This document shows positions 12,301-59,500 of a stretch of 64,000 bases of DNA, piece after piece. The notes under the pieces were generated by a model. It ran no database searches. It was not told the origin of the DNA and was given only the letters and a program-made list of their open reading frames with translations. The position numbers and the translations under genes were made by a program. Positions within the stretch are counted from its first letter, which is position 1; each line of letters opens with the position of its first letter. Source of the DNA: Echinarachnius parma (taxonomy: Eukaryota; Echinodermata; Echinoidea; Clypeasteroida; Echinarachniidae); contig JBAMJV010007730.1 of the NCBI GenBank assembly GCA_037951105.1, positions 107,661 through 171,660 of the forward strand, written 5' to 3'.

Positions 12301-12493
12301 GATTGACAGAACATCATCGAACCCCTACAATATTGAAACGAGCCGTGTCTTCGGGCTATATCTATATTGACATGATTCCAGTTCCCGAATCGTCTGAATT
12401 TTATGTTAATTACTATTCAATAATTGAGAAAGCAAGTTGCCTATCAGACGTTAAAATAATTACAGCCCAAATATACCGTGCATATAACGAATC

Positions 12494-23400: not shown

Positions 23401-24630
23401 TATTCCATAATTTGTGCATCAAGACCATATCAATATAAGAGCAGAGAGATATTAACCATGTTAACGCTCATCCTTGAATTGCGGAACATTTTGTGAGTGT
23501 TTATATTGTATATCTGCAGTGAGTTTGTACAGGGCGGTGATGTATTACAGACTTTGGCAAAATCCGCCTTTCATATGTGCACGTGACCAATCGCAAGCTG
23601 TTGCAGGTCGTCGCAAGTATCGTGTGACCAAGCCATAAACAACTTACTTGATAATTTAACCCACTGGACTTACTCCCTTCAACCTACTTTCAATGTGTAC
23701 TGTAAATGTAGTGTCCCTTGTACCTAACATTATACCAGGCATAATGAAAGACCTGGGAAAATCTGTACACTGTATTTGTGTGTGTGTACGTGTCAACGAT
23801 ATTGATGGTACGTGTGTTATAACGTATAGCTATGTGTGTGTCGCTGTGTAACCAGCGTATGTCGTGTCAGTATCGACTAATCAAGTGCCGAATTATCCAG
23901 AGGCTGAGTTACCTCAAGCCATATTTTTTCCGAAGTAAAACAGAAAAATATTAAATTCGTTTATTAAAGAAGTAACAGTTCAATTAATTTGATATTTCTC
24001 ACACATCTCATTAACATCATTACCTAGCTACATGCTCATTTTGAGAAAGGTCCGCGGTGTTTGCAAGTGTGTTACACTCCCTTTAAGCACCCAAACTGTC
24101 CATAAGCAAATAAGGTCACCTGAAACTTACTACCTAAAGAAATCTCCTCATTTTCCACAGGTGGTCACTATTCACAGGTTTGAATGCAATTTAATTTCGA
24201 TCCTGAATCAAAGATATGCCACTGATCCTATTATCATATTATTATCAATACTGTAGACGCCACCGAAAACTATAACAACCAATGGCAGCTGAAGGCGGCT
24301 AGAAGTCTCCAGAAGATGTTCATCATCGTCATCGCCCTCTTCATCATCTCCTGGACTCCGAACTCGTGCACCTTCTTCGTCTACATGCTAGGCGTCCCTG
24401 TCGACTTCACTGGCTCCTTCTACCACTTTACCGTCGTCTTGTGCTTCGCCAACTCATGCGTGAACCCTTTCATCTACTTCTTCAAGAACAAGACGTTCAG
24501 GCGAGGCGTCCTGCAGGCGTTGGGTATTGGCTCGGGGAACGCGTTGTCTGTGCAGCCGACAGAGTTGGGTTCTACCACTGCAGCTGCAGGGGTGTCAACC
24601 GTCGATGGCACGTCTTCAACCTTGGCGTAA
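12494..24630 (+). CDS. Rhodopsin-class (class A) G-protein-coupled receptor, full gene span
   Basis: Three exons (12494-13090, 19728-19863, 24257-24630) join with GT/AG junctions in matching phases (0, then 1) into 368 aa with seven hydrophobic segments. The N-terminus has two N-glycosylation sites (N6, N16). Family landmarks are visible: GN at 53-54 (TM1), NLAxTD with D82 (TM2), C112 and C187 for the conserved disulfide, ERY at 138-140 instead of DRY, W166 (TM4), P213 (TM5), WTP at 277-279 (TM6) and NPFIY at 314-318 (TM7). It should signal at the plasma membrane through G proteins. The layout resembles peptide-type receptors, but I cannot name a ligand. Both introns are full of repeats. Confidence 0.9.
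13091..14690 (+). other. GPCR intron 1, 5' part
   Basis: AT-rich intronic DNA without recognised genes or complete elements. Confidence 0.6.
14708..14738 (+). repeat. Isolated partial unit of the downstream minisatellite
   Basis: A ~30-bp block (GGAATCGACTCTTCACAGAC plus 'aagatactaa') is identical in design to part of each unit of the array that starts ~470 bp downstream. It may be the seed of that array or a dispersed piece of it. Confidence 0.7.
15195..16400. repeat. Minisatellite with 81- and 96-bp units
   Basis: Fourteen copies of CGCACGTCTCGCT occur at 15212, 15308, 15404, 15481, 15577, 15673, 15754, 15849, 15930, 16026, 16122, 16203, 16284 and ~16380. Spacings are mostly 96 or 81, with one 77 and one 95. 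The 15-bp difference is a local duplication of GGAATCGACTCTTCG. Because 81, 96 and 15 are multiples of three, long frames stay open on both strands. It lies in an intron of the GPCR, so a translated product is unlikely. Confidence 0.95.
16590..18165 (+). pseudogene. Decayed non-LTR retrotransposon (endonuclease plus start of reverse transcriptase)
   Basis: The first readable part is an AP-type endonuclease with a NVRSINNKLDEI start and the catalytic TETW motif, then a GGGVALYV stretch. After ~17030 the frame is broken, but the endonuclease continues (…GFHQGIHLPTRENN…). It then passes into a connecting region and a reverse-transcriptase start (…QWKRGQIIPIPK…, RPICLTSQFAQIAESFV), where homology stops near 18160. 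The 3' half of the reverse transcriptase is missing. It is a CR1/jockey-like relic lying inside GPCR intron 1. Confidence 0.8.
18170..18780. other. GC-rich unassigned segment after the LINE relic
   Basis: CpG-rich to about 18550, with 100-aa open frames on the plus strand and shorter ones on the minus strand. No motif recognised. Confidence 0.3.
18780..19727. other. GPCR intron 1, 3' part
   Basis: AT-rich DNA with one poly-G run at 18850-18868. A phrase near 18915 (GATCAAAAGTTGA) recurs in the 60.9-61.6 kb tandem repeats. It ends with the acceptor TTTTCCTTAG. Confidence 0.5.
19728..19863 (+). CDS. GPCR exon 2 (TM5 and start of intracellular loop 3)
   Basis: 136 nt between TTTTCCTTAG and the donor GTAAGT. 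It codes for residues 200-244 plus the first base of codon 245, with P213 in the expected TM5 place. Entry is phase 0 and exit phase 1, matching exons 1 and 3. Confidence 0.9.
19864..20790. other. GPCR intron 2, 5' part
   Basis: Has a poly-G run at ~19896 and, at 19975-20025, an inverted fragment of the repeat seen at 45050-45275 (shared: GGCGGAGGTATGCACTCC). The rest is unassigned. Confidence 0.5.
20791..22240. mobile_element. Left half of a 2.85-kb palindrome; TIR element of ~1.45 kb
   Basis: It begins ATGGAGTGGTCACAC, then 'aatacttgcgacgac', and ends with the complement (…GTCGTCGCAAGTCTCGTGTG, CCCACTCCAT). Terminal inverted repeats of ~35-40 bp bracket non-coding DNA that includes a SINE-like piece (21120-21230), a poly-C run (21455-21480) and a TAT/AAT-rich stretch. 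No transposase is seen, so it is non-autonomous. Confidence 0.75.
22242..23635. mobile_element. Right half of the palindrome; inverted copy of the TIR element
   Basis: The sequence runs as the reverse complement of 20791-22240 with modest divergence. It starts ATGGCTTGGTCACACG and ends CGTGTGACCAAGCCAT. A (TAG)n array is far longer here (23310-23400) than at the mirror position (~21005-21050), showing independent microsatellite change after duplication. Confidence 0.8.
23308..23402. repeat. (TAG)n microsatellite
   Basis: An array of about 90 bp inside the right palindrome arm. Confidence 0.95.
23640..24256. other. GPCR intron 2, 3' part
   Basis: No repeats or genes recognised. It ends in the acceptor 'aatactgtag'. 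Confidence 0.6.
24257..24630 (+). CDS. GPCR exon 3 (loop 3 end, TM6, TM7, C-tail)
   Basis: Begins AC, completing codon 245 (Asp), and ends with TAA. Contains KAARSLQKM before TM6, SWTPN (276-280), FANSCVNPFIY (308-318), FKNKTFRRG of helix 8, and a Ser/Thr-rich tail. The tail has no obvious palmitoylation cysteine after NPxxY. Confidence 0.9.
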
Positions 24631-25490: not shown

Positions 25491-25704
25491 TTTGAGGTAG
25501 GTCGTGTATTTTTTAGGCTCCGGATTTGTTCTTTTTTGTGGGTGTTTTTGACCTTCGTGGTCCTTGATTTTTTATAGGTTGTATCTTTTTGATGCACTGA
25601 TTACTTTAGACCAGTCCTCGCTTTGTCAGGTTTATTAATTTTTCCGTATTTTGAGGTGTTTTTTTTTTTTGGTTGTGTGTTGCTTTTCGTATTGGCTGTG
25701 CTGT

Positions 25705-27261
25705 ATGGCCGGCCGATCGGATCGCCATGTACAGGGCCAGGCACAAGGCCCTATTGGTAACCCTACTATTGTAGGTGTTGAACAGTTTAAACTCGTAACG
25801 AGGGACAATGGGGTTTCTTTTAGCGCCATTAACAATGTCTCGATTCAAACGTACATTGATGCGTTCGTACAGAACATTCCACCTGAGCATATTGTCTCTG
25901 CTTCTCGAATCTCGAACGGTCGCATTGCTATCTATCTTAATTCCAAAGAGTCAGTGGTGCGTGCTGTGAATCGTGGATTGAATTACGAGGGGGCTTTCAT
26001 CGAATTAACCCCTCTCGTACGCCCCACCACTAAGCTCATTTTGTCTAATGTGTACCCAGAGATACCGAATTCTGTCTTAGTTGAGAATATAGGTTCGTTT
26101 TGTAAGGTTGTCTCTCAATGTAGGCCCATTCCACTAGGGTTGAAGAATAAGAAGCTCACACATGTAATGAGCTTTCGGAGACAAGTTCAAGTGCTCATGA
26201 ATCCAAATATTACCCCTCCCGACCATATTAATTTTACCCACTCGGGTACTAATTATCGTGTGTTTGTGTCTACGGAGTCTGCACGGTGCTTTAATTGTGG
26301 GGAATTTGGACATATTTCGCGCTCATGCAAAAAGCCGAAATCTCAAGCCAACATTGCCCCACCCCCTACGACTTTGAACAAACCTACTACTTCGACAGAC
26401 GACCGACCCCCCTTCGGGCCGACCCCCGCTACTGGAGTGAAGCACACTGCCCCTCCCCCGCCTCCCCTTGTTGGGATGACTGCTAGTTTAGCTCGTGACG
26501 CGCCCCCTCCTGTTGAGGTGCCCCAATCCGGCCCTTCGCGTCCCACCTCCCCCCAGCCTTCTTGCTCCTCGCTGAACCCACCACCCTCTGTAGCTTCATC
26601 AGCCCTTCCACCCAGTCCATCGGGGGTTAAGGGTCCCCAAATTGATGTTGTACGTGAGGGTGATGGGGTTCCCTCCCCATCTCATAAACTTGGCTCTCCC
26701 AAACCCACTCCCCCCTTGTGGAGTGAACCTCCCTTGCCCAGGAGGTCCTTTTCGGATGTTGTCTCCAAGCGGAAACAGACTGCAGCCACACCTGCAGAAG
26801 AGATTTCTAATACCCTTACACCACTCAAGACCCCATCCCCTCAGAGGAAAATGCAGAAGAAGTCTCTTACCCCTTTGGTGAACAAGTCCCCTACGCTTAC
26901 ACAGGCCCTCGACACCCCGACTCCTGAACCCCCCTCCACCCCATTGTCCTCGACCGAGGACCCCGCCGCAGACTTGACAGACACTGACTCTATGACCTGG
27001 GAGGATACCCAGTCCCAGACTGATGAAGAGTCGATACATGAAGAGACTCTCCCCCTCACACCAGGCCCCCTGTCGGCTTCTGAAATTATTAAGTTTTTAG
27101 CTTCGGTTAAAGGCAGGAAAAAACCAACTCAAATAGCTCGCAAATACACTTCCAATATTCCTGGTTTAGTGAAACAATTGAAGCCCTTGAAGAATAGTCC
27201 GCTATTTAAGAAAAGCATGCAACAGAGGATTTATAAATTAGTTAACACGCTAGACGTGTAG
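25705..27261 (+). CDS. LINE ORF1, nucleic-acid-binding protein with CCHC zinc knuckle (518 aa)
   Basis: Starts at ATG 25705 (MAGRSDRHVQ); the frame is open upstream only from non-ATG codons. The N-terminal ~190 residues form a folded-looking region with PTTKLILSNVYPEIPN and FRRQVQVLM blocks, typical of Tx1-like ORF1. A zinc knuckle follows at C195-x2-C198-x4-H203-x4-C208. Residues ~215-450 are a Pro/Ser/Thr-rich linker, and the C-terminus is basic (KGRKKPTQIARKY…). The expected role is to bind element RNA in a ribonucleoprotein. The stop codon lies in the loop of a 7-bp hairpin (27249-27267). Confidence 0.9.
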   Translation: MAGRSDRHVQGQAQGPIGNPTIVGVEQFKLVTRDNGVSFSAINNVSIQTYIDAFVQNIPPEHIVSASRISNGRIAIYLNSKESVVRAVNRGLNYEGAFIELTPLVRPTTKLILSNVYPEIPNSVLVENIGSFCKVVSQCRPIPLGLKNKKLTHVMSFRRQVQVLMNPNITPPDHINFTHSGTNYRVFVSTESARCFNCGEFGHISRSCKKPKSQANIAPPPTTLNKPTTSTDDRPPFGPTPATGVKHTAPPPPPLVGMTASLARDAPPPVEVPQSGPSRPTSPQPSCSSLNPPPSVASSALPPSPSGVKGPQIDVVREGDGVPSPSHKLGSPKPTPPLWSEPPLPRRSFSDVVSKRKQTAATPAEEISNTLTPLKTPSPQRKMQKKSLTPLVNKSPTLTQALDTPTPEPPSTPLSSTEDPAADLTDTDSMTWEDTQSQTDEESIHEETLPLTPGPLSASEIIKFLASVKGRKKPTQIARKYTSNIPGLVKQLKPLKNSPLFKKSMQQRIYKLVNTLDV

Positions 27262-27267
27262 TCTAGC
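27249..27267 (+). promoter_or_regulatory. Hairpin around the ORF1 stop codon
   Basis: GCTAGAC and GTCTAGC form a perfect 7-bp stem with loop GTGTA. The TAG stop (27259-27261) straddles loop and stem. ORF2's first ATG is 48 bp further on. A role in termination and reinitiation is only a guess. Confidence 0.5.
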
Positions 27268-27309
27268 TTGTTTTGGTTTTGTGATTGTTGTTTTTTTTGT
27301 TTTTTACGT

Positions 27310-30300
27310 ATGGCTCTGTTTATGGTTGGTTGTTTTTCTTTTGTGATGGCTTTGTCACTGCTGACCCTCAATACGGGTGGGTGCTCGGCGATTTCGCAAA
27401 ATGCGTCTTTTAAAGTTTTTGTTGATCATTTGACCTCTAACCCAGATATAGTCTTTTTGCAAGAGACTTATCAGCTAAATGAAAATAGCTCTTGTTGGAG
27501 GGAATGGTCTTATGTTCCTTTTTGTTCGCCAAGCTCCTCTCGTGGGTCAGGGGTCACAACGTTATTGAATAGCTCAAAAATAGAGTGTTTGTCTTCACTT
27601 TCTGTTTGTGATGGGTATATTTTATATCATAAAATTTGTTTCAATAGGGCCATATATCACATTTATAATACCCTCATCCCCCATGATGATCGGCTGGCTT
27701 TACGTACCATAACAGCCCTTCATGATCATGTTTCTAGCTGTAATGATGGCACTATTGTCATTGGGGGCGATTTTAATTGCACGGAGAACCCAGTACTTGA
27801 TCGTTTTCATATGTCAGTAGAACACAGGGCTAAAGTTTCAGTTGCTTTGAAGAATGTATTTAATTCGTTTTCGCTTTGTGATACTTGGCGTAGATTGAAT
27901 CCTGGTGTAAAGAAATTTACTTGGTTTAGAAATAATTCGGCTAGTGTTCATGGGGCTTCTAAGTCCAGGCTAGATCGTTTTTATGTACCGCTATGTTTAT
28001 TTTCTTTTGTTCATTCATGTGATATTATTCCTTGTTCCCTTTCTGATCATTCAGCGGTGCTGTTGAAATTTAAGCCTCCTTCAATTTGTGGAGGAAGTGC
28101 TTATTGGCACTTTAATAATACTTTATTAGAGGATGAGAATTATAGGGAAATTATAAAATCCTTTTGGTTAGATTGGCAGAAGGAAAAGAATAATTTTGTG
28201 GAAGTTGCTTCTTGGTGGGATTTTGGTAAAGTTCATATTAAGTCTATTACTCAAATGTATAGCTCTAAGATTAGGCAAGAGAAACGGTCAGCTTTATTTG
28301 ATATTAATAGAAGGATTGATGAACTTCAGTCTACACCAGACTTTACTCTTGAGATTAGAAATGTACTTGCTGAACAAAGAGATGCACTTAATTTATTATT
28401 GAAAAATGAGGCACAGGGTGCTCTCATAAGGTCTCGCTTTAGATACACGAATGAGTCTGATTCTTGTTCTAGTTTCTTTTTTAATCTTGAAAAGTCGAAT
28501 TCGAATTTTAAAAATATGTCTCGCATTCGTCTCCCTTCTGGTTGTATAACAGAAGATCCGAATGAAATAAGAATGCATGTTCGTAATTTTTATGAGTCTT
28601 TATACTCGTCTTCTGTTGTCGATAAGAGTGCCCTAGAATATTTATTACCCGATTCCATTGCTTATGACCCCTCCCTGTTAGAGGATCTTGAAGACCCTCT
28701 TTCGGAGGAGGAGTTTGATGTTGCAGTACAGCACCTTGGCAAGAATAAGTCGCCCGGTTTAGATGGGCTCACATCAGAATTTTTTCAGGTCTTTTGGCCT
28801 ACTTTACGTGATGATTTTTTCTCTGTTATTTGTTCGTCGTTTGAGTCAGGGGCTCTGCCTCCCTCTCTTAGACGGGCAGTTATAACGTTGCTCCCTAAAA
28901 AAGGAGATTTGGCCGATGTTTCAAATTGGCGCCCCGTTTCTCTTTTGAATACGGATTATAAAATTCTTGCCAAGGTGCTGGCTGGCAGGCTAACGCAATA
29001 TATTGGCAATGTTATTGGTGAGGATCAAACATATTGTATTCCTGGCAGGTCCATTTATGATAATATTAATTTAATTCGTGATGCTATTTTTTATGCAAAT
29101 GCTGAAGATATACCCTTGGCCTTGATTAATTTAGATCAGAAAAAGGCTTTTGATAATGTGGATCACTCTTATTTGTTCAACGTTATGAAGAAAATGGGGT
29201 TTGGTGATCGTTTTATTTTTTATATACAGACTTTGTACGAGGGTGCTGAGAGCCTTATAAAAGTAAGTGGGTCACTGACTTCCCCCTTCCTTTTTGAGAA
29301 GGGAACTCGTCAGGGGTGCCCCCTCTCAGGACTACTCTATACTATTGCAATCGAACCGTTTTTAGTTACTTTAAGGAATACTTTGATTAATCATGGTTTA
29401 TGTATACCTGGAACTAATGTGAATTGTGCTATTTCTGCGTATGCAGATGATGTAACTGTTTTTATTACTTCGGACCCAGGGTTCGCTGTGGTTGAGAAGG
29501 CTTATGATTTGTTTAGCCGCGCCTCTGCTGCTTGTCTTAATACACAAAAGTCTCAGGGCTTATGGGTTGGCCGATGGATGGGGCGCAATGATTCGCCCTT
29601 GAATTTTATGTGGAATAATGAAGGTCTCCCGTTTCTTGGAGTTCATTTGGGAAACACAATTAATTATGTGCGTCAGAATTGGAGTAAGTGTAAAGATAAA
29701 TTAATTAAAACGTTTGCTTCTTGGTCTCGGCTTGTTTATTCTTTGTCTTTTAAAGGGAAAGTTTTAATTGCAAATCAGCTGGCAGCCTCTAAGGTTTTCC
29801 ACTGTTTAGCGGTTCTTTCTCCCCCAGACAATATTCTAAATGAACTCCAGAATTTACTTGTTGATTTTGTGTGGTCTAAGAAGCGACATATGTTGAAAAA
29901 ATCAGTTCTTTTTGAACAACCTGACAAAGGAGGACTTGGTCTAGTTTGCCTCCAAGCACGCGTTTTTTCTTTTAGGTTCGGTTTTCTTCAACGTTTTTTC
30001 AATCTTACTTCACATCCGGCTTACCTTTTTATGAAATGTTTTTTTCGACAATATTGTAAGTTGGGTTATGATTATCAATTGTTTCACGTTGAAATTAACC
30101 CTAAATTTCTTGTTAGTTTGCCGGTTTTTTATGGTGAGGTTTTGCGTGCTTGGATGGTGTCCGGAGCCCGTATAGATACACGATCTATCTCGTTTAATTA
30201 TGCTGCCAATATGCCATTAACTTGTTTTTTGTTACCAAATGATAATTATGTTGGTTGCTGCCCCCCTGCTCGACCCTTGGCGTGCGGGGCCCAACTAGTC

Positions 30301-31212
30301 CGCCACTTGCTTGACCCCCTGTCTGGTCTGTGGCTTGACCCCTCCGCTTTACATATATTTTTTAAAGGACTTCGCCCGCCTTCCCTTCGTCTCCTCCGCC
30401 GCGAACTCCAGCACCTGCGCCTTGCCATCGCTAGCGCGTTTCCAGCCTGGTTCAACGAGCTTGGGTGCAAGATATCGACACATGTGGATCTACAGACAAT
30501 TTCATCTTTCCCATCGGTTGCGATCGACGTCTGCTTGCCGATGCTTGAAAATGGAAGCAAAGCTTCGTCAAAATCTATCTACAGGATGTTCAACAAGATC
30601 ATTAACAAACTTTCCGACCATGTTTCGCACTGGCACCGAATTGGGTCCGTCGACGAGTCAACCAAGCTGCAGTGGGCCCTTGTCTACAAGCTACCGACGT
30701 CGAAGAAGGAAGGCGATGTCCAGTTTAAGCTTTTTCACAATATATTGCCCTCACTTACTGTTTTGCATCATATAAATCCTGATATTTTTTCGCGACACTG
30801 CGGCTGGTGCAAGGATGCACCAGGTACAATCGAACATTTATTTATTCAATGCCCGGCCATTCAACCGGTCCTTACTCTTTTGTCCGTATTATTGAATCGT
30901 TTGTTCCCATCTTTACTTTTAAATTTTGATTTATACTGGTCCCTTGTCCCGTGCGCAGGTGGTCGTAGCAGGGAGGCGGTGCGCCTCGCTAATTTTTTGA
31001 TCATTAGTTGCAAGTGTGTCATTTATACTTTGTTTCGTACGAATTCTTTTTCCAATCCTGTGATTATTTGGCAGCATCGGTTAAAAAGCAGGATTTTATA
31101 TGAATTTCATTATTATCATTTGTGCCACAATGTCGATGCTTTTTTAAAAACGTGGTCACATAATAATACTCTGTTCCTTTTCGATGATTGCAAATTGATT
31201 TGGTTGTTTTAG
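27310..31212 (+). CDS. LINE ORF2, endonuclease and reverse transcriptase (1300 aa)
   Basis: Start taken at ATG 27310, just before the endonuclease LTLNTGG block; ATG 27346 is also possible. The AP-type endonuclease has FLQETYQ, GGDFN (D154) and SDH (245-247). The reverse transcriptase has WRPVSLLNTDYK, NLDQKKAFDNVDH, GTRQGCPLSGLLY and the catalytic YADD at 711-714. The C-terminal domain has a CxxC…H…C cluster beginning at C1164 (HCGWCKDAPGTIEHLFIQCP). All catalytic landmarks are present with no stop, so the copy looks competent or recently active. Its product would nick the target and copy element RNA there. Part of the C-terminal region is unusually GC-rich (about 30250-30730). Confidence 0.95.
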   Translation: MALFMVGCFSFVMALSLLTLNTGGCSAISQNASFKVFVDHLTSNPDIVFLQETYQLNENSSCWREWSYVPFCSPSSSRGSGVTTLLNSSKIECLSSLSVCDGYILYHKICFNRAIYHIYNTLIPHDDRLALRTITALHDHVSSCNDGTIVIGGDFNCTENPVLDRFHMSVEHRAKVSVALKNVFNSFSLCDTWRRLNPGVKKFTWFRNNSASVHGASKSRLDRFYVPLCLFSFVHSCDIIPCSLSDHSAVLLKFKPPSICGGSAYWHFNNTLLEDENYREIIKSFWLDWQKEKNNFVEVASWWDFGKVHIKSITQMYSSKIRQEKRSALFDINRRIDELQSTPDFTLEIRNVLAEQRDALNLLLKNEAQGALIRSRFRYTNESDSCSSFFFNLEKSNSNFKNMSRIRLPSGCITEDPNEIRMHVRNFYESLYSSSVVDKSALEYLLPDSIAYDPSLLEDLEDPLSEEEFDVAVQHLGKNKSPGLDGLTSEFFQVFWPTLRDDFFSVICSSFESGALPPSLRRAVITLLPKKGDLADVSNWRPVSLLNTDYKILAKVLAGRLTQYIGNVIGEDQTYCIPGRSIYDNINLIRDAIFYANAEDIPLALINLDQKKAFDNVDHSYLFNVMKKMGFGDRFIFYIQTLYEGAESLIKVSGSLTSPFLFEKGTRQGCPLSGLLYTIAIEPFLVTLRNTLINHGLCIPGTNVNCAISAYADDVTVFITSDPGFAVVEKAYDLFSRASAACLNTQKSQGLWVGRWMGRNDSPLNFMWNNEGLPFLGVHLGNTINYVRQNWSKCKDKLIKTFASWSRLVYSLSFKGKVLIANQLAASKVFHCLAVLSPPDNILNELQNLLVDFVWSKKRHMLKKSVLFEQPDKGGLGLVCLQARVFSFRFGFLQRFFNLTSHPAYLFMKCFFRQYCKLGYDYQLFHVEINPKFLVSLPVFYGEVLRAWMVSGARIDTRSISFNYAANMPLTCFLLPNDNYVGCCPPARPLACGAQLVRHLLDPLSGLWLDPSALHIFFKGLRPPSLRLLRRELQHLRLAIASAFPAWFNELGCKISTHVDLQTISSFPSVAIDVCLPMLENGSKASSKSIYRMFNKIINKLSDHVSHWHRIGSVDESTKLQWALVYKLPTSKKEGDVQFKLFHNILPSLTVLHHINPDIFSRHCGWCKDAPGTIEHLFIQCPAIQPVLTLLSVLLNRLFPSLLLNFDLYWSLVPCAGGRSREAVRLANFLIISCKCVIYTLFRTNSFSNPVIIWQHRLKSRILYEFHYYHLCHNVDAFLKTWSHNNTLFLFDDCKLIWLF

Positions 31213-35298: not shown

Positions 35299-35644
35299 TC
35301 AACAAAAGGGAGTTTCATACTCTTGGTCATCATTGCCTCCCCCATTGACAGGGGGTTGGTTTAGACCCTGGTAAATGTGAGGAGCGTCTCTCGGTCGCGT
35401 AACTACTCCTGCATTCTCGTATGTGACATCGTCCTGCGGCATGGTTACTGCTGCAACTTCGTATTCACTCTCATTGATGTCGACATGATACGGCGAAGGA
35501 TCGGCCAGATGGGAGTTAGAGACAAGTGGAGCCTTTCCTACGCCTATATTCAGGAGAAAAGCATCCGTCGAGTTATTCAGTCTTGGTTTCTTGCTCTGTC
35601 CAGATGGCAATCCCTCTTGCGATGTTGCTGCGCCCTTTCGCCAA
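35299..35644 (-). CDS. Mucin-like receptor, cytoplasmic-tail exon
   Basis: The acceptor TTTACAG precedes 346 nt ending in TGA (35299-35301). Entry phase 2 completes Cys269. The tail is 114 residues, hydrophilic, with five tyrosines, four of them in E/D-rich or YxxL/YxN contexts. The KKPR basic patch (287-290) follows the membrane. Confidence 0.8.
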
Positions 35645-38600
35645 CTGTAAACAATGGCAGAATGTATGATTAAATGTTTTGTAACTAAAAGTGAACAAAG
35701 AAAATTGTGCATCGCTTGGAATTTAAAGATCTCCGGATCGTTATACCAGTGCTCTAAACACTGACCTACAACACTTTTATGATGGCTTGGAATGTACTAC
35801 CCATGTGATTATAAAAGAAATATTGAGTCTTGGTTTCATATTGAAATTTATCTTGACACTGTGTTTTCAGTTTAAAAGTTCATCTCAATAGGATAAAGGC
35901 ATTGTACAGTCATGGAATACATACAAGTGTACATACCACGCAAGACGAAAGTACAGCATGGCAAAAACGAATCCACCGATGATGTTGACAGAGAGTGAGA
36001 TTCCAAACAAGACCCATGGAATCGTCAGGGCGGGACACGTCTGCTCATGACTCCCAGATAAACCTGTCGAGTTACGAATTCGATAAACATACAATAATCA
36101 CGTTATAATAACAAACAATTGAAGATGATCCGCCTATTTGATCAAATGGGGACAAGATAATTGATCGATAATTTATCGATTTTCACTACAGATGAATTCT
36201 GATTTGTTCTAAACATTGGGCAAAATGCATAGCAAGTATAGCATTTGCATGTCATGGCTATAATCAAAAGCAAGAGCTTGTCAGCTAAGTTACTAAATCT
36301 CTTTAATTTGACATGATAATCAAATCAAATTGTGAAAAGGTGATGAATTAGTACATCCTTATATCCATAGCAGGATCATACTTACGTCTAGGAGTCGAAG
36401 ATGCAGTAGTTGCAGGGGCAGCAGTTGCAGGTGCATCAGTTGCAGGTGCTCCAGTTGCAGGTGCACCAGTTGCAGGTGCACCAGTTGTAGGTGGTGCAGT
36501 TGTAGGTGCAGCAGTTGCAGGTGCACCAGTTGTAGGTGCAGCTGTTGTAGGTGCATCAGTCGTACGTGCAGCAGTTGTATGTGCATCAGTTGTAGGTGAA
36601 ACAGTCGTACAGGGTATCCAAAAATAACGTGTACACCCTAAACAATATTAATTTAACAAGGATAACACCATATTTAAACAATAATTTATAAATCATATGA
36701 CTTTCCTAACATTCTCACACGTTATTCTTCTAGAAAAAAAACCTAACAAGGTATTCTTTCATGCCATTTTCTTCCCATTATTTACATTTTTCCGGTTTTG
36801 TGGTAACAACAAATTATTCGGACACCTATCACCAAGTGGTAACTTAGCATGTTTTGCAGGACGGTCTGGTCAGGACTTGGTTGGTCCTCCTTGTGCAGCA
36901 ATCACAACCCTAACAAGACCCATGGGGTCGCCAGGGCGGGACACGTCTGATCAGGACTCACGGATGAATCTCTCGTGTGATGAATTCGACAAACATACAC
37001 ACAATCACGCTATAATGAAATCCAATTGAAGATGATCCGCATAATTGATTAAATGGGGAAAAGATAATTGCACCATTTTGAAAAACACAAACACATTTTA
37101 TCGTTTTTCAGTACATCTGAGTTCTGGTTTTGTTAACCAATTGGGCCGAATTGCATGTCATGGCTACAATCACAAGTAAGAGCTTTACTAAACGTCTTTA
37201 ATTTTACAAGACAATCCAATCAAATTTTGAATATAGATGATTAATTAGTATAACTTAATATCCGTAGCAGCAGCAGACTTACAGCTAGTAGTCGTAGGTG
37301 CAGCTGTTGTACGTGCATCAGTCGTAGGTGCAGCAGTTGTAGGTGCAGCAGTTGTAGGTGAAACAGTCGTACAGCTAGGTATCCAAAAATAACGTGTACA
37401 CCCTGAAAAATATTAAATTAACAAGGATAACACCATATTTATACAAACATTTATACATCATAATGACTTTCCTAACATTCTCATTATTTACATTGTTCGA
37501 GTTTTGTGGTAACCAAAACTTATTTGGACACCTATCACCTTTTATCGATTTTCAGTACATCTGAGTTCTGATTTTATTCAAAAATTGGGCCGAATGAATA
37601 GCAAGTATAGCGATTGCATGTCATGGCTACAATCGCAGGCAAGAGCTTGTGGATTAATTTACTAATTAATTGACATGATAGTCAAATAAATTTGTGAACA
37701 TAGGTGATTAATTAGTATAACATAATATCCGTAGCAGCAGCAGACTTACAGCTAGTAGTTGCAGGTGCAGCAGTTGTAGGTGCAGCAGTTGTAGGTGCAG
37801 CAGTTGTAGGTGAAACAGTCGTACAGCTAGGTATCCAAAAATAACGTGTACACCCTGACAAATATAAATTTAAGAAGGATAACACAATATTTATACAATA
37901 AATTATAAATCATATGACTTTCCCAACATTTTCTTACGTTATCTTCTAGAAAAATGGACAAGGTATATTTTGTGCCATTTTCTTCCCATTATTTAAATTC
38001 GTTCAGGTTTTGTGGTAACCAACAATTATTTGGACACCTATCACCAAGTGGTAATTTAGCATGTTTTACAGGTCTGGTCAAGACTTGGTTGGTCCTCCTT
38101 GTGCAACAATCACATCCCAAGGGTAAGGGTTAGGGTTAGGATTAGGGATAGGGTTAACCCAAACCCTAACCCTAGACAGGACACGTCTGATCGGGGCTCG
38201 CAGATGAACCTGTCGAGTTACGAATTCGGTACACATACAAACAATCACGTTTCAATGAAAAACAATTGAGGATGATCCGCAATTTAATTAAATGGGGAAA
38301 TGATAAGTGCACACTTTCTTGAAACACAAACACATTTATTGCTTTTCAGTACATCTGAGTTCTGGTTTCGTTAACAAACTGGGCCGAATTGCATGTCATG
38401 GCTACAATCACAAGCAAGATCTTGTCAATTTATTTACTTAACCTTTTTAATTTTACATGACAATCGAATCAAATTTTGAATATAGATAATTAATTAGTAT
38501 AACATAATATCCGTAGCAGCAGCAGACTTACAGCTAGTAGTTGCAGGTGCAGCAGTTGTAGGTGCAGCAGTCGTAGGTGCAGCTGTTGTACGTGTAGCAG

Positions 38601-41600
38601 TTGTAGGTGAAACAGTCGTACAGCTAGGTATCCAAAAATAACGTGTACACCCTGAAAAATATTAATTTAAGAACGATAACACAATATTTATACAATAATT
38701 TATAAATCACGTGACTTTCACAACATTCTCACACGTTATTCTTCAAGAAAAAAAACTAAAAAGGTATACTTTCATGGCATTTTCTTCCCATTATTTACAT
38801 TTTTCCGGTTTTGTGGTAACAAAAAATTTTCGGACACCGATCACCAAGTGGTACTTTGGCATATTTTACAGGTCTGGTCAGGACTTGATTGGTCCTCCCT
38901 GTGCAGCAATCACATCCCAAGGGTTACGGATAGGGATAGGGTTAACCCTAACTCTAACCCTAACCCTAGACAAGACACGTCTGATCGGGGCTCACAGATG
39001 AACCTGTCGAGTTACGAATTCGGTACACATACAAACAACCACGTTTAAATGAAAAACAATTGAAGATGATCGGCAATTTGATTAAATGGGGAAATGATAA
39101 GTGCACACTTTCTTGAAACACAAACACCTTTTTATCAATTTCAGTACATCTGAGTTTTGATTTCGTTAACAAATCGGGCCGAATTGCATGTCATGGGTAC
39201 AGTCACAAGCAAGAGCTTGTCAATTAATTTACTAAACCTCTTTAATTTGACATAACAATCCAATAAAATGTTGACTATAGGTGATTAATTAGTAGAACTT
39301 AATATACGTAGCAGCAGCAGACTTACATCCAGTAGTCATAGGACCTGGTGTAGCAGTCGTACGTGCGGGTGTGGCTGCATCTTATGTCGGTACAGCAGTC
39401 GTGTGTGCATCAGTTGTAGGTGCAGCAGTAAATATGCATCAAATGTGGGTGCAGGAGTCGTAGGTGCATCAGTTTCAGGTGCAGGCATGCAGCAGTCGTA
39501 CAAATTAGCAAAAAATAAATTAGGCACTCTGACTAATATTAAAATAACAAGGGTAACACCATATTTTTACAACAATTTATTAATGAAATGAATTACACTA
39601 CATTCTCACACATTATTCATCTAGAAAACCATGAACATAGTATTATTTTGTTCCCATTATTCACATTTTTCCGGTTTTGTGGTAACAACAAATTATTCGG
39701 ACACCTATCACCAAGTGGCAATTTGGCATGTTTTCCAGGTCTGGTCAGAACTTGGTTGGTCCTCCTTGTGAAGCAATCGCAGTACACTACTCAACTCAGT
39801 TGTCAACCGCATAAATGTAGATGGACCAGTCGAGACTGTCCCATGTGCGCTGAAGTATGTCTTTTAGGTGTTGGGCCATATATTTTGGACTGTTGATAGG
39901 CATTGTACATTATATGGTGGTTGTGGTGGATTTTTCCCTTCCATATCATCCCTAATGTTATGTATTGATTGATTTAGGGGCTTTTAAAAAATTTAACTGG
40001 ATGACTTTCACCCTTTTCTTTGCAAGACCTGCAATTGCTTTGCAGGATCTATTAGGTTGATAACCTGTTGATAAATGCAACAAATTTGATTTTCTGTGTA
40101 AAATATTAGGATGCAGATCGCCTCCATTGACAGGTGTCATGCATCCCCACACCAAAACACTCTGATCCCCTTACTGGGGTAAGACAGTGGAGGCTATACT
40201 GATCTATTGAATGGGGACATATTCCCTGACAACCATCTGATCCGTTGACCACATGACTGACTTCCAGATGACAATAGGCTTGTCAGCAAGTTCTCTGGCA
40301 AAGTTATAAATGTTTATGTCTGTTATTATTGATGACGAGTGGCTTATTGCAAGAATAGCTGTCATGGAGCCCACATGCACTTAAGCTTGAACATAATTCG
40401 ATGACAGCAGACCCGGGTTCCAGTAGCATGTGCCACTCTTTCAGCTTTTGATTTTTCCTGACAAGCTTTTAGGTGTACCCGTGTGTCCGTCAAAGTGACA
40501 TTTCTCTCCAACCGCCCTCCCTCTTGAATGCTATTTCCACCATTGTCCCTGTATCTCTGTATTCTGTTGTGCATGGACGACAGTTTCATATCTAGTTTGG
40601 ATACCATCCTTGTTGAATGTGACTTTCTCCTTTAATTAATAGGATATTTGTGCAGGTTTAGTCATGTTTAACCCTAAGTAGACCGGGGTGGGGGGGGGGG
40701 GGGGGGCATAATGCCCCCCCTCCCCCCTTCAGCGGTTTTTGTTATTGCTCCAAAAACGGGGTAGGATGACACGCCGCTGGTTGGTGACTTTTTCTTTTGG
40801 AGTCTTGAGCATATTTTATAACAAACATTTTGAAACTCGGGCCTACCGTTACGAAGTCACATGACCTTTTATCTATGCATGTCAGCCCGAAAATCGCTCA
40901 ATTTCGTGATTTGTGTACAAAACAAATGGAAATATCAGTTTTCAGAAAAAGAGGTATATCATTGGTTATTTGGTCTTGTTTACCTTTTATATGTTTGTTT
41001 TGGGGCTCAAAATTGTTGAATTATAGTTAGAAATAAAATAAACAACAAAAACAATAAAATACATAAGTAAAACAAAAACAAAAATACATAAGAAATTATT
41101 AAAGAAACAATAGAAAACATAAGGAAGAACCTGGCTCTTCCGAACTTTATTGTCGTATTATTATTCCAAATGCTCTAAAGAATATATGTAGTGAAAACCA
41201 ATGTTTAAAGTGATGGAGGAAAAGTGTAACATTCTGCCGAAAGAGACATTTGAGACTTCAATCCTATGTCAATATCATTGTAATATACAATTGAAGGATT
41301 TGTGAAAGTTTGAAAGAAAACGAAAACTGTTTACCTCGTGAAAAAAGGGAATATTGATTTCATATTTTATCACCGAAAATTGATGGCCTACCGTAAATTT
41401 GTCAGAAGAATGATGGTCCGGCCGTTGATATGCGCACCCGTACATGTACACATCGGCTCAGCTCAACAGTCGCGGTACATCGACTCGTTGCGCGCGCTGC
41501 CCTGTCTATCGCCCGTCTATCGGCGAGGTTTAGGCCGTGATCGCGTGGCCAGGCGCGCGCCGGCCGGCTGGGCGTGAACGTGAAAGCTACAGCTGGCAAA

Positions 41601-44600
41601 TAAAAGCAACTCCACGTACGCATATTCTGAAATTCCATTGTTCTCTTTCAAAATTTATTCTATAATTACTCACTCTCCCTCTATCATATAGTAGGCAACA
41701 TCCGCCATATTGTGTATTCATTTTTCATGGAGACAATGGAATAGTGTGGTCAGACTAAATGGGGGCACACCTTATATATTTTGTTTCTATACATTCTGAT
41801 CTTGCAGTGGCATGAACTATTTTGAAAAGTGGGGGTGGGGTGGTGGGAGGGAGCAGGGGGGGGGGGGGGGGGTGTGGGAGGGGTATCACACTATCGCCCC
41901 TCCCACAGTAGGGAGCTTTTCCAATTTTCACTCGAAAAAATGTGCAGTGTGTTCCATACCTTGGAATATACTAGAATTCAAGAAAGCATGACCTCCCACA
42001 TGTCTATATAGGCTACATTTGGGGAGGGTATGTGGGTAGATTTTTTGTATGTATCACTTTAGAAGTATGCTAGTTATGCAAACGAGAGATATCCCCCACC
42101 CTTCACCCTGTCATACCCCCAATCTATTCCTGTGATGTTTTGTATTTTTATGGCAAATTATTAGAGGGGATGGGGGGGGGGGGGGGGGGGTGCGCCCCCA
42201 TGCAACATCACTGCATGTAGAGGTTGCAGAGAAAAGGAATGTAATTGAACCTGTCTATAGTGATCACCTTTCTACAGTGGCCACTTTGATTGGCGGTCAT
42301 GGTACACAGGTTTTACTGTACATTTTCATGCTTCTAGCCATTTTTTCCCCCTTTGTATAAGTACCTGGTACCATGTGTGCATTTTTTACATTTCAAACTA
42401 ACAAAATTGCCTGTTTGTTTAAATGTATGCTTGTAAATTGTACTTTTTTGAAGAAGGATTTACAGTGAAATTTGAAGCAATGCAAATGGTTGAATAACTT
42501 CGGTATTTACACAGCATTTTCACATTTAATGAAAATCAATTATATAACATAATTTTGTTAACAGTTGTTTCTGCATTTATTGAAAAATGAAATACAAAGT
42601 ATCCAAATAACAATAATTGCATATGAAATTATTGTTATTTGGATACTTTGTATTTCATTTTTCAATAAATGCAGAAACAACTGTTAAAAAATGTTTAATA
42701 CTGGGTGATTGATTCAACTTTTGGATGTGTGCAAATCATGTAGTGTCTCCGTGAATGTGTCTCATACATTGTCCACCTAGCCATTTGGTTGATCCTGATC
42801 TATGAAAAATAAAATTGAGTTGGCCGACCCTTCATTACCCTGCATATAATAGGGCAAGCCTCTGTGAATCCAAGCAAAATGAGGGTTAAAAGGACAATTG
42901 GCATAGTGATACACACTCACATTTCTTCATGGGTGTTATTAGGAACTTCAATCATACATTATATCAATAACCTTGTACAATTATTCTGAATCATATTATT
43001 TATTATTATTTCATCTGAGAAAACAATGGTTTGTTTGAGTTAAAAAATGACAAATTTATGTCATAATAATTTATTCCATACTGCCCACTGATTTGAACTC
43101 CAAGTTAAAGCATCTTGTAACATAGATACAGTGGAACCTCCTAACAAGAGGTACCGGATACAGCGATGATAATTTTACACGTCAAGGATCTTTTAAAAAA
43201 ATTATTTTTAAGCCCAGACACAAGATATCTGACATAAGGAATTCAATCCAATTGTGCCCGAGGTGCTTGTTATAATTAGGTTTCTCTTCGACGACTCAAT
43301 TACTACGTAAGTTGTAGTTTATTCGTCACGTTATAATACATTGAAGTAAATTTATTATCTACTAACATACAGGCCAGTTTTTCGATTCAATACATCGCGT
43401 ATTTTGTTTCCGTCTATAGGGTTTGTCATTCATAGAGGACATTATTACTATGATATTACTGTCGTAACGCGTATTCTGCAACTCTATAAATGTGGGTTTG
43501 CAGTAGTACAGCAGATAAGTGTTAAAAATTGCATGGACATCGTTTGATACAAGCTACAAACTTGGTATGCAGGCCAGGCTACCCTAAGATAAACTTTTCA
43601 GAAAAAACACACTTAGACAAACGAAAGGCAAAGATGACCGCCAACCCGCTACTGTTTGGTCGATTTTAATAATTTTAGTGTTGATGTGTATGTTTCTTGA
43701 AATGCTTGAAACGATTGTGACACAAACGGACCCATATGATGTCAAAAATCCAAGATGGCTGCCCAAAAGCCACTTCGGTCGACTTTGATAATCTTGGTGT
43801 CGAGTAAAGTTTCCTGATATCCTGAAAACGATTCTAATACATACAAACATACAGTGGAGAAAATCGAACATGGTGGCCATTTCCAAGTTACGTGCCAAAA
43901 AACAATGTTTTAAAGGGATAGTTGAGTTTTGGTAAAGAGAGTACAGTTTTTGTCAAACTGAATTTTAGTGACTAAAATCTGCACGATTAGATTACAAACT
44001 AATCGTTACTATTCCACCATGCTCAAAAAGAAAGACAAATTACAAATGACTTAGTTAAAAGCCTGTTATCATTCAAAAAGAGCCGTTTAAACGCAATATG
44101 GCGCTCTCTAAAATCTCATTAGTTTTAAGCATTTAAAATAAAACATTGTGCATGTGATGTTTTGTTGAAATAGTGATTAAATAGAGAGATAATCAACAAC
44201 TATTTCAAATCCTCTTTTGTAAATTTTGAAAAGAGGAAGCATTTAAACAAATGTTTAACGGCTGGTTCAAAATTATCGAATAATTGTGGGGCCCCACAAT
44301 TATTACATATGGTTATGTTTATGGATATTTCAGCCATTTCCGAACCGATTTTGATCAAATAAAGTTTATTCTCTCATTAAAATTGTATGCTCTTTCAAAG
44401 CCGACACTCAGTTTTTCATTATCTTTCATTATACAATTTTAATGGCAGAATAAATTGTATTTGATCAAAATCGCTTCAGAAACGGCTGAAATATCCATAA
44501 ACATAACCATTTGTTATAAATGTGGGGCCCCACAAGTATTCGATCATTTTGAACCAGCCGTTAAAATCCGTTTTAAAATGCTTCTAGCTCTTTTCAAAAA

Positions 44601-45396
44601 TGTTCAAAAGAGGTTTTTATATAGTTGTTGATTATCGCTAGAGCTATCTAATCACTATTTCAACAAAACATCACATGCACAATATTTTATTTAAAATGGT
44701 TTAAACAAATGCTTTTTTGAAAGCGCCCTCTTTAGTTTAAACAGCTCTTTTTGAATGATAACAGCCTTTTTACTTAGTCGTTTGTAATTTTTGTATTCCT
44801 TTTGAGCATGGTGGAGTTATAATTATTAGTTTGTAATGTAAGTGCAGGTTTTGGTTACTACAACTCAGTACTGTACTCTCTCTACCAGAACTCAACTATC
44901 CCTTTAATTAAAAAAGACGACTGAGTTGGGAAATTTGGATTTGGGCCACTCTGTATACACCGATTTAGTCTACAAACGCAATATAAATAGTATCATACAT
45001 GTCATATGAATCGGGTGAGGTACAAAGGGAAATATCAAGTTTAAGGTACGGTATCTTGTTTGTTTGTTTGTTTGTCACCAGTCTCCTGCGCACAATGTCA
45101 CAAATATCTCAACCAATTTTTCGTAGAAGCTTCGTGTTCATTTAGAATGGAACCCAATTACATTTTCAAGGTCAAAAGTGAAAGGACAAAGGCAAGGTCA
45201 AAGTCACGCAAACATCAAAATTTGAGTGTTGGCGGAGGTATGCACTCCCTGTATGCACTGCATCTAGTTGTAGATACAATGAGCGTGAGATCAAACGAAC
45301 ACAACATTACTTACCCGTAGTCTGTGACATAGTGGTAGCAGGGAATGTGAATAGGGCAATCAAGAAGATAGCAGATACGCCTTTATAGCTCTCCAT
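35299..45396 (-). CDS. Mucin-like single-pass receptor with phosphotyrosine-motif tail (full span)
   Basis: Seven exons join in phase into 383 aa: signal peptide (45315-45396), four Thr/Ala/Pro-rich exons (38532-38651, 37750-37854, 37283-37402, 36386-36637), TM (35937-36063) and tail (35299-35644). All junctions are GT/AG. Each mucin exon opens with the block CTRYFWIPSCTT (two cysteines), then PTTAAPTT-type repeats that should be heavily O-glycosylated. The TM segment is residues ~240-265. The tail has Y321, Y330 (YEVA), Y344 (YENA, Grb2-SH2-like), Y360 (YQGL) and Y378 (YETP). It therefore looks like a surface receptor or adhesion mucin able to recruit SH2 proteins. I know no named homologue. 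Confidence 0.75.
35937..36063 (-). CDS. Mucin-like receptor, transmembrane exon
   Basis: Acceptor CTCGACAG, donor GTATGT. Codes for a juxtamembrane stretch with one Cys (C236), then a hydrophobic run with a GG pair (IPWVLFGISLSVNIIGGF). Partial copies of this exon occur at three upstream places. Confidence 0.8.
36386..36637 (-). CDS. Mucin-like receptor, longest Thr-rich exon
   Basis: 252 nt, phase 1-1. Begins CTRYFWIPCTT, then about fifteen pentapeptide-like units (APTTG, APATG, APATD). Acceptor 'attgtttag', donor GTAAGT. Confidence 0.8.
36902..36969 (-). pseudogene. Truncated copy of the TM exon (relic 1)
   Basis: Matches the first ~20 codons of the TM exon (…SPDQTCPALATPWVLLGL) and then reaches TGA. 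At the break the sequence reads TTAGGGTT on the minus strand. An AG acceptor is still possible at its start. Confidence 0.6.
37283..37402 (-). CDS. Mucin-like receptor, Thr-rich exon
   Basis: 120 nt, phase 1-1, acceptor TTTTTCAG, donor GTAAGT. Codes for CTRYFWIPSCTTVSP followed by PTTAA/PTTDA units. Confidence 0.8.
37750..37854 (-). CDS. Mucin-like receptor, Thr-rich exon
   Basis: 105 nt, phase 1-1, acceptor ATTTGTCAG, donor GTAAGT. Same CTRYFWIPSCTT start and one repeat fewer than its 120-nt neighbours. Confidence 0.8.
38120..38175. repeat. Telomere-like inverted tract 1
   Basis: GGGTTAGGGTTAGG-type units meet CCCTAACCC-type units around GGGTTAACCC, giving a head-to-head array of ~56 bp fused to the TM-exon relic. 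Confidence 0.85.
38172..38209 (-). pseudogene. TM-exon relic 2; possible secreted-form terminal exon
   Basis: The original acceptor CTCGACAG is kept, followed by an 11-codon frame SSASPDQTCPV and TAG, where the telomere-like tract starts. Phase fits the upstream mucin exon. Confidence 0.5.
38532..38651 (-). CDS. Mucin-like receptor, first intact Thr-rich exon
   Basis: 120 nt, phase 1-1, acceptor ATTTTTCAG, donor GTAAGT. Codes for CTRYFWIPSCTTVSP and PTTAT/RTTAA units. It is the first intact mucin exon after the signal-peptide exon. Confidence 0.8.
38919..38969. repeat. Telomere-like inverted tract 2
   Basis: Second head-to-head GGGTTA/TAACCC array at the equivalent position of the neighbouring duplicate. 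Confidence 0.85.
38966..39003 (-). pseudogene. TM-exon relic 3; possible secreted-form terminal exon
   Basis: Same acceptor and length as relic 2; reads SSVSPDQTCLV then TAG. Confidence 0.5.
39325..39527 (-). pseudogene. Decayed mucin exon
   Basis: Keeps the phrase APETDAPTTPAPTFDA and a TTGTACGACTG start like the intact exons, but frames are shifted and stops appear. It is an older copy, probably skipped in splicing. Confidence 0.65.
39960..40625 (-). pseudogene. Decayed Tc1-like transposase
   Basis: Minus-strand frames, broken by stops, read RIQRYRDNGGNS, then WKSVMWSTDQ-like sequence, then VLVWGCMTPVNGGDL. The last matches the VWGC…G.G.L core of Tc1-type transposases. No inverted repeats identified. 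It lies in intron 1 of the mucin-like gene. Confidence 0.45.
40680..41400. other. Intronic spacer with poly-G/poly-C
   Basis: A G run and a facing C run at 40687-40728 can pair. The rest is AT-rich without features. Confidence 0.5.
41405..41590. other. CpG-dense island in AT-rich DNA
   Basis: About 185 bp with many CG dinucleotides and CGCGCGCCGGCCGG at its core. No coding evidence; it could be a small promoter or a transposon fragment. Confidence 0.35.
41820..42220. repeat. G-rich repeat fragments
   Basis: 41830-41940 resembles the 3190-3270 part of the hAT element (GTGTGGGAGGGG, 'cccctcccac'). 42170-42215 has another G run and a GCGCCCCCATGCA word. Confidence 0.5.
42558..42687. mobile_element. 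Perfect 130-bp palindrome (MITE-like) with TTAA ends
   Basis: Two 61-bp arms are identical in reverse complement, with an 8-nt loop GCATATGA. Ends are TTAACAGTTG and CAACTGTTAA. Confidence 0.9.
42690..43490. other. AT-rich intronic spacer
   Basis: No recognised gene or complete repeat. Confidence 0.5.
43495..43909 (+). repeat. Copy of the CAAGATGGC foldback-repeat family
   Basis: Order of words as at 865-1440: CAGCAGATAAGTGTTA, 'gatacaagcta', 'tatgcaggcc', AATCCAAGATGGC. The sequence continues after the MITE (44908 on, GACTGAGTTGG). Confidence 0.75.
43914..44903. mobile_element. TTAA-type MITE, head-to-head double copy
   Basis: Begins AGGGATAGTTGAG after TTAA (43910-43913) and ends CTCAACTATCCCT before TTAA (44904-44907). 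The two halves are inverted copies meeting near 44440. Each contains the GGGGCCCC palindrome (44279-44304 perfect; ~44516-44539 imperfect). It interrupts the repeat at 43495-43909, so the insertion is clean. Confidence 0.85.
45048..45275 (+). repeat. Dispersed repeat ending GGAGGTATGCACTCC
   Basis: Starts with (TTTG)n, then 'caaatatctcaaccaattttt' and 'aaggtcaaa' blocks. An inverted fragment of its end lies at 19975-20025. It stops ~40 bp from the signal-peptide exon. Confidence 0.55.
45315..45396 (-). CDS. Mucin-like receptor, signal-peptide exon
   Basis: ATG at 45396. The first 27 residues have a positive N-region, a hydrophobic core (VSAIFLIALFTF) and small residues before a likely cleavage (PATTMS). 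Donor GTAAGT at 45314, phase 1, matching the first mucin exon. This is the only start found for the gene. Confidence 0.75.
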
Positions 45397-59265: not shown

Positions 59266-59339
59266 TTCTTGAGTACGTTGAGATGCTGATATCAAACATA
59301 ATGAGGAATATATAAAATATGTAATTAATAAGCAATATA

Positions 59340-59500
59340 CAGGTTGCCTCCCAAAAACGGAACGGGATACTTACAATAATAAAGAAACATGATGTCTAGA
59401 TTCACGGGACATGGCATCTTTTAAAAAGACAAATTATACCGAGAACAACGAGAACATTTTGGTCGAGTAGTTTTGGGGTTTAGGGTGTTCTAAGTGACAC
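59340..59500. mobile_element. Partial mariner-like MITE
   Basis: Diverged CAGGTTGCC end with AACGGAACGGGATA and CATCTTTTAAAAAG as in the 10057 copy. The right end is not found. Confidence 0.6.

Follow-up and report, generated by a model that had tools for sequence, protein, structure and literature searches.

What kind of gene, if any, is formed by seven separate exons on the minus strand between positions 35299 and 45396 of a 64,000-nucleotide stretch of Echinarachnius parma DNA (contig JBAMJV010007730.1; this whole stretch is called the window below)? A preliminary description, made from the letters of the stretch, proposed a mucin-like receptor with a phosphotyrosine tail, built by exon duplication and with a layout known from no described family. 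According to the analysis presented here the prediction seems to correspond to a real gene, one that would encode a surface protein with a stalk that can be coated with sugars and a tail of the signalling type. It is probably a functional or recently functional type I surface receptor gene, a branch of a larger family, with an array of modules that grew by unit duplication. This judgement covers the gene, the family and the growth of the array; the phosphotyrosine step is valued apart, and for this reason the odds of the rival explanations overlap with those of the judgement.

The exons, rebuilt from their coordinates, join into the single frame of 383 amino acids that had been claimed for them, with all six introns running from GT to AG and junction phases of 1, 1, 1, 1, 1 and 2. 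Exon 1 (45315 to 45396) provides the start codon and the signal peptide MESYKGVSAIFLIALFTFPATTMSQTTG and ends in phase 1; its homologues on other contigs of the family are 79-100% identical. Four mucin exons follow, all of class 1-1. The first (38532 to 38651, 120 nucleotides) encodes CTRYFWIPSCTT and a Thr-rich array, the second (37750 to 37854) has 105 nucleotides and the third (37283 to 37402) 120, while the fourth (36386 to 36637, 252 nucleotides) carries a long array of five-residue Thr/Ala/Pro repeats and has one Ser fewer in its module. The transmembrane (TM) exon (35937 to 36063), homologous to that of a wider family, ends in phase 2, and the last exon (35299 to 35644) holds the cytoplasmic tail with five tyrosines and the stop codon.

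The translated model contains every part described: a signal peptide, four modules that each combine CTRYFWIP(S)C with a Thr-rich stretch, a TM segment and a tail with five tyrosines. The modules were described as four copies, and four are present, but they are not identical: three read CTRYFWIPSCTT, and the fourth, CTRYFWIPCTT, is one residue shorter. The signal peptide is hydrophobic, reaching 2.93 over its best nine residues on the Kyte-Doolittle scale, and the TM segment scores 2.08 from residue 244. In the ectodomain, residues 26-230, Thr accounts for 32%, Ala for 22% and Pro for 14%; there are 8 Cys and no N-glycosylation site; Ser and Thr make up 79 of its 205 residues, and tandem repeats of 15 nucleotides lie outside the TM segment. 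This composition supports the proposed mucin-like ectodomain in a spliced type I membrane protein. The tail, about 115 residues long, places its tyrosines in the contexts YHVD, YEVA, YENA, YQGL and YETP.

The modules would form C-x8-C loops, bounded by Cys and aromatic in the middle, and the repetition of such a short peptide after a signal peptide allows a quite different product to be imagined, a precursor from which cyclic peptides are released as from multi-copy neuropeptide precursors. The loop may bear a superficial likeness to somatostatin-type rings. Against this, dibasic sites occur in the 383-residue protein only at residues 226, 271 and 287, with none between modules, and the modules are followed by a TM segment and a conserved tail. 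We regard a peptide precursor as very improbable.

The agreement of phase over six junctions had been presented as unlikely by chance. Phases alone are weak evidence for this, because AG and GT sites are plentiful, and it is conservation across copies that raises the model above chance: the exon order is common to other copies, the phase-2 intron is shared, and the module core stays constant within two of the genes (A and B, below) while introns change. These copies were found by searching the genome that contains the window (1.2 Gb in 14,790 contigs). The module occurs on the window contig and five others, and a close tail is additionally present on contig C14362, giving copies on six further contigs; signal peptide, modules, TM segment and tail are kept on other contigs in the same exon order. 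A pattern for the 39-nucleotide module core, with up to three mismatches allowed, matches 24 places in the genome, 18 of them exactly and all on contigs of this gene, while the reversed core, used as a control, has no match in the same 1.2 Gb.

Sequence comparison and a tree of tails group the window copy (contig C7718) with those of C3305, C5642 and the second gene of C7426 as gene A, and the first gene of C7426 with C12896 as gene B; C8080 and C14362 hold further copies that are not joined in the tree. The window is 99.7% identical to C5642 across 9 kb, and to C3305 it is 96-98% identical in the 3' part of the gene and 91-94% in the upstream pieces, values with which the gene A copies may be alleles, paralogs or assembly duplicates. 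On C7426 the order is B then A, and the tail search found no B tail in the window. Exons resembling exon 1 (E 6.5e-6 to 0.02) were also seen at C14374:48126, C14374:43312, C10651:21377, C58:9656, C3045:11587, C330:59469 and C3924:14958. The contigs of these seven have no tail match, and the loci are possibly further receptors with other tails.

How the array of modules expanded can still be read from the window. Upstream of the four open mucin exons lies a fifth, decayed one (about 39327 to 39528, minus strand), recognised by reading the sequence and by its repeat family; it measures 202 nucleotides by hand count, which is not a multiple of three, and its frame is broken. Measured from exon starts, the modules are spaced at 877, 797, 452 and 765 bp, and every full-length unit holds a truncated 5' fragment of the TM exon, whereas the 452-bp unit has none. 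Two of these minus-strand fossils, each displayed over 75 nucleotides and containing stops, lie one inside intron 1 at 38929 to 39003 and the other at 38135 to 38209; a third, RDSSVSPDQTCPALATPWVLLGL, occupies 36905 to 36973 and is followed by the unit junction. Several TM-exon fragments, including the one at about 36970, share an identical or almost identical junction sequence at their end, GTTAGGGTTGTGATTGCTGC; the two upstream fragments of the window, at 38929 and 38135, instead run into telomere-like TTAGGG repeats. Fossils are found at comparable places in C12896, C7426 and C8080.

The simplest reading of full-length units that carry a truncated TM exon is that the array grew as they were duplicated in tandem, a breakpoint having fallen within this exon; the unit measures 765-877 bp, with one copy of 452 bp. 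Expansion of the array by tandem exon duplication, as first proposed, is thus borne out by the repeat units and the TM-exon fossils. A full unit would add a complete class 1-1 mucin exon, which could be spliced in frame, together with a TM fragment that looks donorless and would be skipped, the position of the unit's end within the TM exon disabling the additional copy. With all four open mucin exons in class 1-1, isoforms that omit entire mucin exons would be expected. The length of the Thr array itself changes in steps of 15 nucleotides. Among stretches selected for lengths divisible by three, the genome contains 26 open module exons, besides one of 42 nucleotides that was taken as spurious. 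The mucin exon at C7426:39104 has shrunk to 30 nucleotides: it has lost its entire Thr array as well as the Cys that closes the loop, apparently because the stretch between two AGCTGTA words was deleted, with donor and frame preserved.

A measure of constraint on the modules is available from their surroundings, as the alignable introns of the duplicated units can serve as a yardstick for the first 50 nucleotides of the mucin exons. The core of the window gene has no substitution in 6 pairs of modules, while the introns show mean distances of 0.22 upstream and 0.17 downstream. Gene B (C12896) likewise has none in 15 pairs, against intron distances of 0.19 upstream (15 pairs) and 0.15 downstream (10 pairs). 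Across 13 units (four from A, six from B and three from C8080), a selection from which the diverged C8080 modules were left out, the core proves less diverged than its introns in every one of the 78 pairs, and 5 of 53 core columns vary compared with 105 of 252 intron columns (p ~3e-6).

For the tail, the ratio of nonsynonymous to synonymous change (dN/dS) lies at 0.23-0.48 in 11 pairs that involve C8080 or C14362. The window tail gives 0.37 with C8080 and 0.31 with C14362, and these two give 0.23 with one another; the synonymous excess in the window tail has p=0.025 against C8080 and p=0.006 against C14362, two comparisons that are not independent. The ratios indicate moderate constraint on the tail. 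The diversifying selection envisaged in the preliminary description is not supported, with module cores invariant within genes A and B and tail ratios below 1, and for the modules it is rejected on the first of these grounds.

The tail also shows that the gene does not stand alone. Its exon has 52 matches in the genome at E<=0.1, comprising 7 close ones (88-100% identity), the mucin clade, and 45 others, of which 40 are 41-61% identical and 7 lie on a single contig, C4366. Internal stops interrupt 3 of the 52 and none of the 7. Among the matches listed, the acceptor position is the same in all 34 tail loci (31 distinct). Where 1.5 kb upstream of each of 30 loci was searched, the TM exon was found at 17, and at 16 of these a phase-2 donor comes after it. 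Thus the window gene belongs to this family by its homologous tail exon and by a TM exon with a phase-2 donor. When 30 tails are placed in a tree rooted at its midpoint, the mucin clade makes up one side of a branch with support of 100/100. The statement that no described family has this layout consequently needs dividing: it holds for Pfam, but the gene is not isolated, as its TM segment and tail recur in a large family of the same genome. Among the open-access papers listed for it, none describes the layout, as judged by titles and the openings of abstracts.

The relatives differ from the mucin clade in what precedes the membrane. The upstream DNA of four was read further for ectodomain exons by tblastn, and one (L056) has three EGF-like exons, one Ig-like and one FN3 exon in order ahead of TM segment and tail, a second (L058) an EGF-like, an Ig-like and an FN3 exon, and a third (L055) an Ig-like exon and two FN3 exons. 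Pfam names two of the FN3 exons (9e-9 and 3e-11), leaves the Ig-like exon unnamed and reports the EGF exons below cut-off only. The joined exons of one relative match, in the PDB, the EGF-like protein 6u11 (9e-11), the Tie2 chain 4k0v (weakly, at 1e-5, through EGF and FN3 parts) and the receptor phosphatase mu 2v5y (7e-5), so the EGF assignment appears weakly supported in Pfam and better in the PDB. For the Ig-like exon the predicted model is of low confidence (pLDDT, the predicted local distance difference test, of 63), and the Foldseek matches listed are mostly antibody variable domains, none at E<=0.001; the name is tentative.

At least 92 matches to this Ig-like exon were counted genome-wide. 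It lies on the same strand within 30 kb upstream of 25 of the 52 tails, all 25 among the 45 others and none among the 7 of the mucin clade, for one of which (C14362) the contig extends no more than 1.8 kb upstream. In the case of C9632:49396, included in the 25, the Ig exon probably belongs to a neighbour, and near 2 tails an Ig-like exon lies on the opposite strand. Many similar exons were noticed on contigs that lack this tail, for example C825, C1669 and C8232, and the Ig-like ectodomain may occur with other cytoplasmic parts too. In the window, tblastn found no EGF, Ig-like or FN3 exon, and intron 1 contains no phase 1-1 candidate exon of 90-400 nucleotides with a pyrimidine-rich acceptor and a GT[AG]AG donor.

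Family receptors such as those at C4366:144.8 kb, C1690:292.8 kb and on C13193 resemble the window gene in their homologous tail exon, in the TM exon where it was found, in the phase-2 intron between the two and in the tyrosine contexts YEN, YQGL and YETP. Three of the four read upstream differ from the mucin clade in carrying Ig-like exons together with FN3 exons, to which two add EGF-like ones; no exon of these kinds was found near mucin-clade tails. An ectodomain of this type is absent from the window gene, and it is not universal in the family. It seems that the repeated module stands in the mucin clade where the relatives carry Ig-like and FN3 exons; the folded domains may have been lost by this clade or absent from it from the start.

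Several observations weigh against a functional gene of this family. In the window, the pyrimidine tract at the acceptor preceding the TM exon is weak, and within the 1.5 kb scanned downstream polyA-like signals lie either 5 bases past the stop or 1.2-1.35 kb away. Pfam finds nothing over cut-off in the 383-residue protein (WDR93 at E 0.06, Extensin_1 at 0.48), and the PDB offers no relative of the tail. One of the four relatives read upstream (L057, C9632:49396) showed no EGF, Ig-like, FN3 or TM exon in about 6.8 kb by tblastn. When three diverged C8080 modules are added to the yardstick comparison (16 units), the core is the more conserved in only 85 of 120 pairs and the column test is not significant (p=0.23). 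Inside genes A and B the synonymous sites vary as little as the remaining ones, and the invariant core persists in a C12896 module that has no donor, so that the constancy perhaps goes beyond selection on the protein; homogenisation such as local gene conversion may explain part of it, and a splicing element is a possible cause. The dN/dS of the tail rises to 0.51-0.83 between A and B, with medians of 0.59 among the relatives and 0.66 between mucin clade and relatives (24 of 30 tails), and the gene A copies differ in the tail by 1-4 changes, mostly nonsynonymous but too few for a dN/dS reading. Modules are broken elsewhere too, through a lost donor in C12896, a 1-nucleotide deletion and an acceptor shift in C7426, and several decayed copies in C8080.

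Much of this would be expected if the locus were a decaying receptor fragment, in which a duplicated TM-tail part had lost its ectodomain, Thr-codon repeats had been joined to it fortuitously by splice sites, and the whole had become a homogenised family of pseudogenes. The damage, which comprises lost donor, shifted acceptor, indels and an insertion, affects modules of B, of C8080 and of the C7426 copy of gene A, and the decayed fifth module of the window and a tail not clearly constrained among gene A copies are of the same character. In the diverged C8080 modules the variation is roughly that of introns. The three that were added have no clear donor or are otherwise decayed, which fits a loss of constraint after use was lost. 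A pseudogene family is harder to reconcile with the complete lack of stops in mucin-clade tails, with the low tail ratios in pairs with C8080 or C14362 and with an invariant core beside diverged introns in both A and B, and the window copy is intact throughout. We consider decay improbable.

If the gene is functional, the question becomes what its tail does. In an alignment of the 32 best-matching of the 52 tails, tyrosine is kept at the YEN position in 29, at YQGL in 30 and at YETP in all 32, against a mean share of the top residue of 0.69, and three positions of the signalling-like tail described at the outset are upheld by these counts. The substitutions are Lys at the YEN tyrosine in three relatives and Phe or Ser at the YQGL tyrosine in two. 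All 7 mucin-clade tails have in addition an insertion of 14 residues with an extra YEVA, and the LYEG tyrosine that most relatives possess is missing from the clade. YEN resembles a Grb2-type YxN site, YETP a Crk/Nck-type YxxP site and YQGL a YxxL site; the last would also be compatible with a sorting signal of the YxxL type.

A rival reading is a surface-coat protein with a structural role, a mucin or an adhesion molecule, whose repeats would build a glycan layer and whose tail would serve for cytoskeletal anchoring or endocytosis only, with no phosphotyrosine signalling. Thr/Pro/Ala-rich repeats of variable length and the lack of any recognised binding domain suit such a protein, as would YQGL in a sorting role. 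Furthermore, measured against the consensus for immunoreceptor tyrosine-based activation and inhibition motifs (ITAM and ITIM), two spaced YxxL/I or [ILVS]xYxx[ILV], the tail has one YxxL (HIYQGL) and neither a complete ITAM nor a strict ITIM. However, the three tyrosines are retained across the aligned tails, including tails of relatives whose ectodomains are entirely unlike, and this retention points to a shared cytoplasmic task. A purely structural protein seems to us unlikely, though less so than decay.

For the receptor reading, the following mechanism is proposed. The signal peptide would lead into the loop modules, each followed by its Thr/Ala/Pro array, then TM helix and tail; the arrays, judging by composition, would carry dense O-glycans, and secretion, glycosylation, disulfides within the loops and use of the exons in mRNA are all inferred. 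The stalk would act as a spacer and the loops as sites of binding or clustering. Clustering of the receptor would allow a cytoplasmic tyrosine kinase to phosphorylate the tail, on which SH2 adaptors would then dock. This signalling step, drawn by analogy from known motifs, we place slightly short of an even chance.

Comparison with known systems offers partial likenesses. MUC1, PSGL-1 and the TIM family share with the window gene a stalk prone to O-glycosylation, a single TM segment and tail tyrosines, but Pfam shows no sequence relation between them and the window gene and finds no SEA domain of the MUC1 type at E<=1; a Cys-loop module repeated exon by exon is not known from these proteins. 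The order EGF, Ig-like, FN3 is part of that of Tie receptors (Tie1 and Tie2 in vertebrates), and it is seen in one relative and not in the window gene, which is without such an ectodomain. The family further differs from Tie in its tails of about 100-115 residues without a kinase, and for the window gene, with a tail of 115 residues, Pfam finds no kinase at E<=1. A report of a sea urchin Tie orthologue (SpTie1/2) is cited in PMC9367165 and PMC13409769. An invertebrate precedent for the proposed phosphotyrosine mechanism is provided by the amphioxus inhibitory receptor BbLcLRR, whose tail tyrosines, according to PMC8211107, are phosphorylated by the Src-family kinase Lck and act with SH2 phosphatases; it differs from the window gene in its leucine-rich repeat (LRR) ectodomain and ITIM-type motifs.

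We tentatively go one step further, with the odds leaning against us, and suggest that a conserved TM-plus-tail cassette is coupled in one genome to unrelated ectodomains, Ig-like with FN3 (and EGF) in part of the family and a self-expanding mucin-loop array in one clade. Full duplications would add in-frame exons as the end of the unit inside the TM exon disables the extra TM segment, and the numbers of genes and modules differ between contigs of the assembly, as in receptor families of immunity or self-recognition. If transcribed, the locus would be a readable case of one signalling end placed on a folded ectodomain or on a mucin stalk, with the breakpoints still visible. The large family with its common tyrosine tail, for which no description was found in the literature, also forms a candidate set for work on immunity and cell recognition.

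The rest of the window contains features of other kinds. On the minus strand, an open reading frame (ORF) at 58870-59370 begins much like a signal peptide and matches half of a C-type lectin domain, the first, short of the Pfam cut-off; this exon (58.9-59.4 kb, same strand as the gene) was considered as a possible 5' part of the gene and set aside, since both a start codon and a signal peptide are already supplied by exon 1. On the plus strand, 25639-31212 is a retrotransposon of the long interspersed nuclear element type with two long adjacent ORFs, one of 540 residues with a CCHC zinc knuckle and the next of 1316 residues with endonuclease and reverse transcriptase domains, flanked by long TTC and TCT microsatellites. 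Two plus-strand ORFs, at 12488-13186 and 24226-24630, match complementary parts of the profile 7tm_1 of rhodopsin-type G-protein-coupled receptors and are perhaps one gene split by a long intron. Between them, at 15189-16394 (plus strand), lies a tandem repeat array with units of about 77-96 bp and several overlapping long open frames on both strands.

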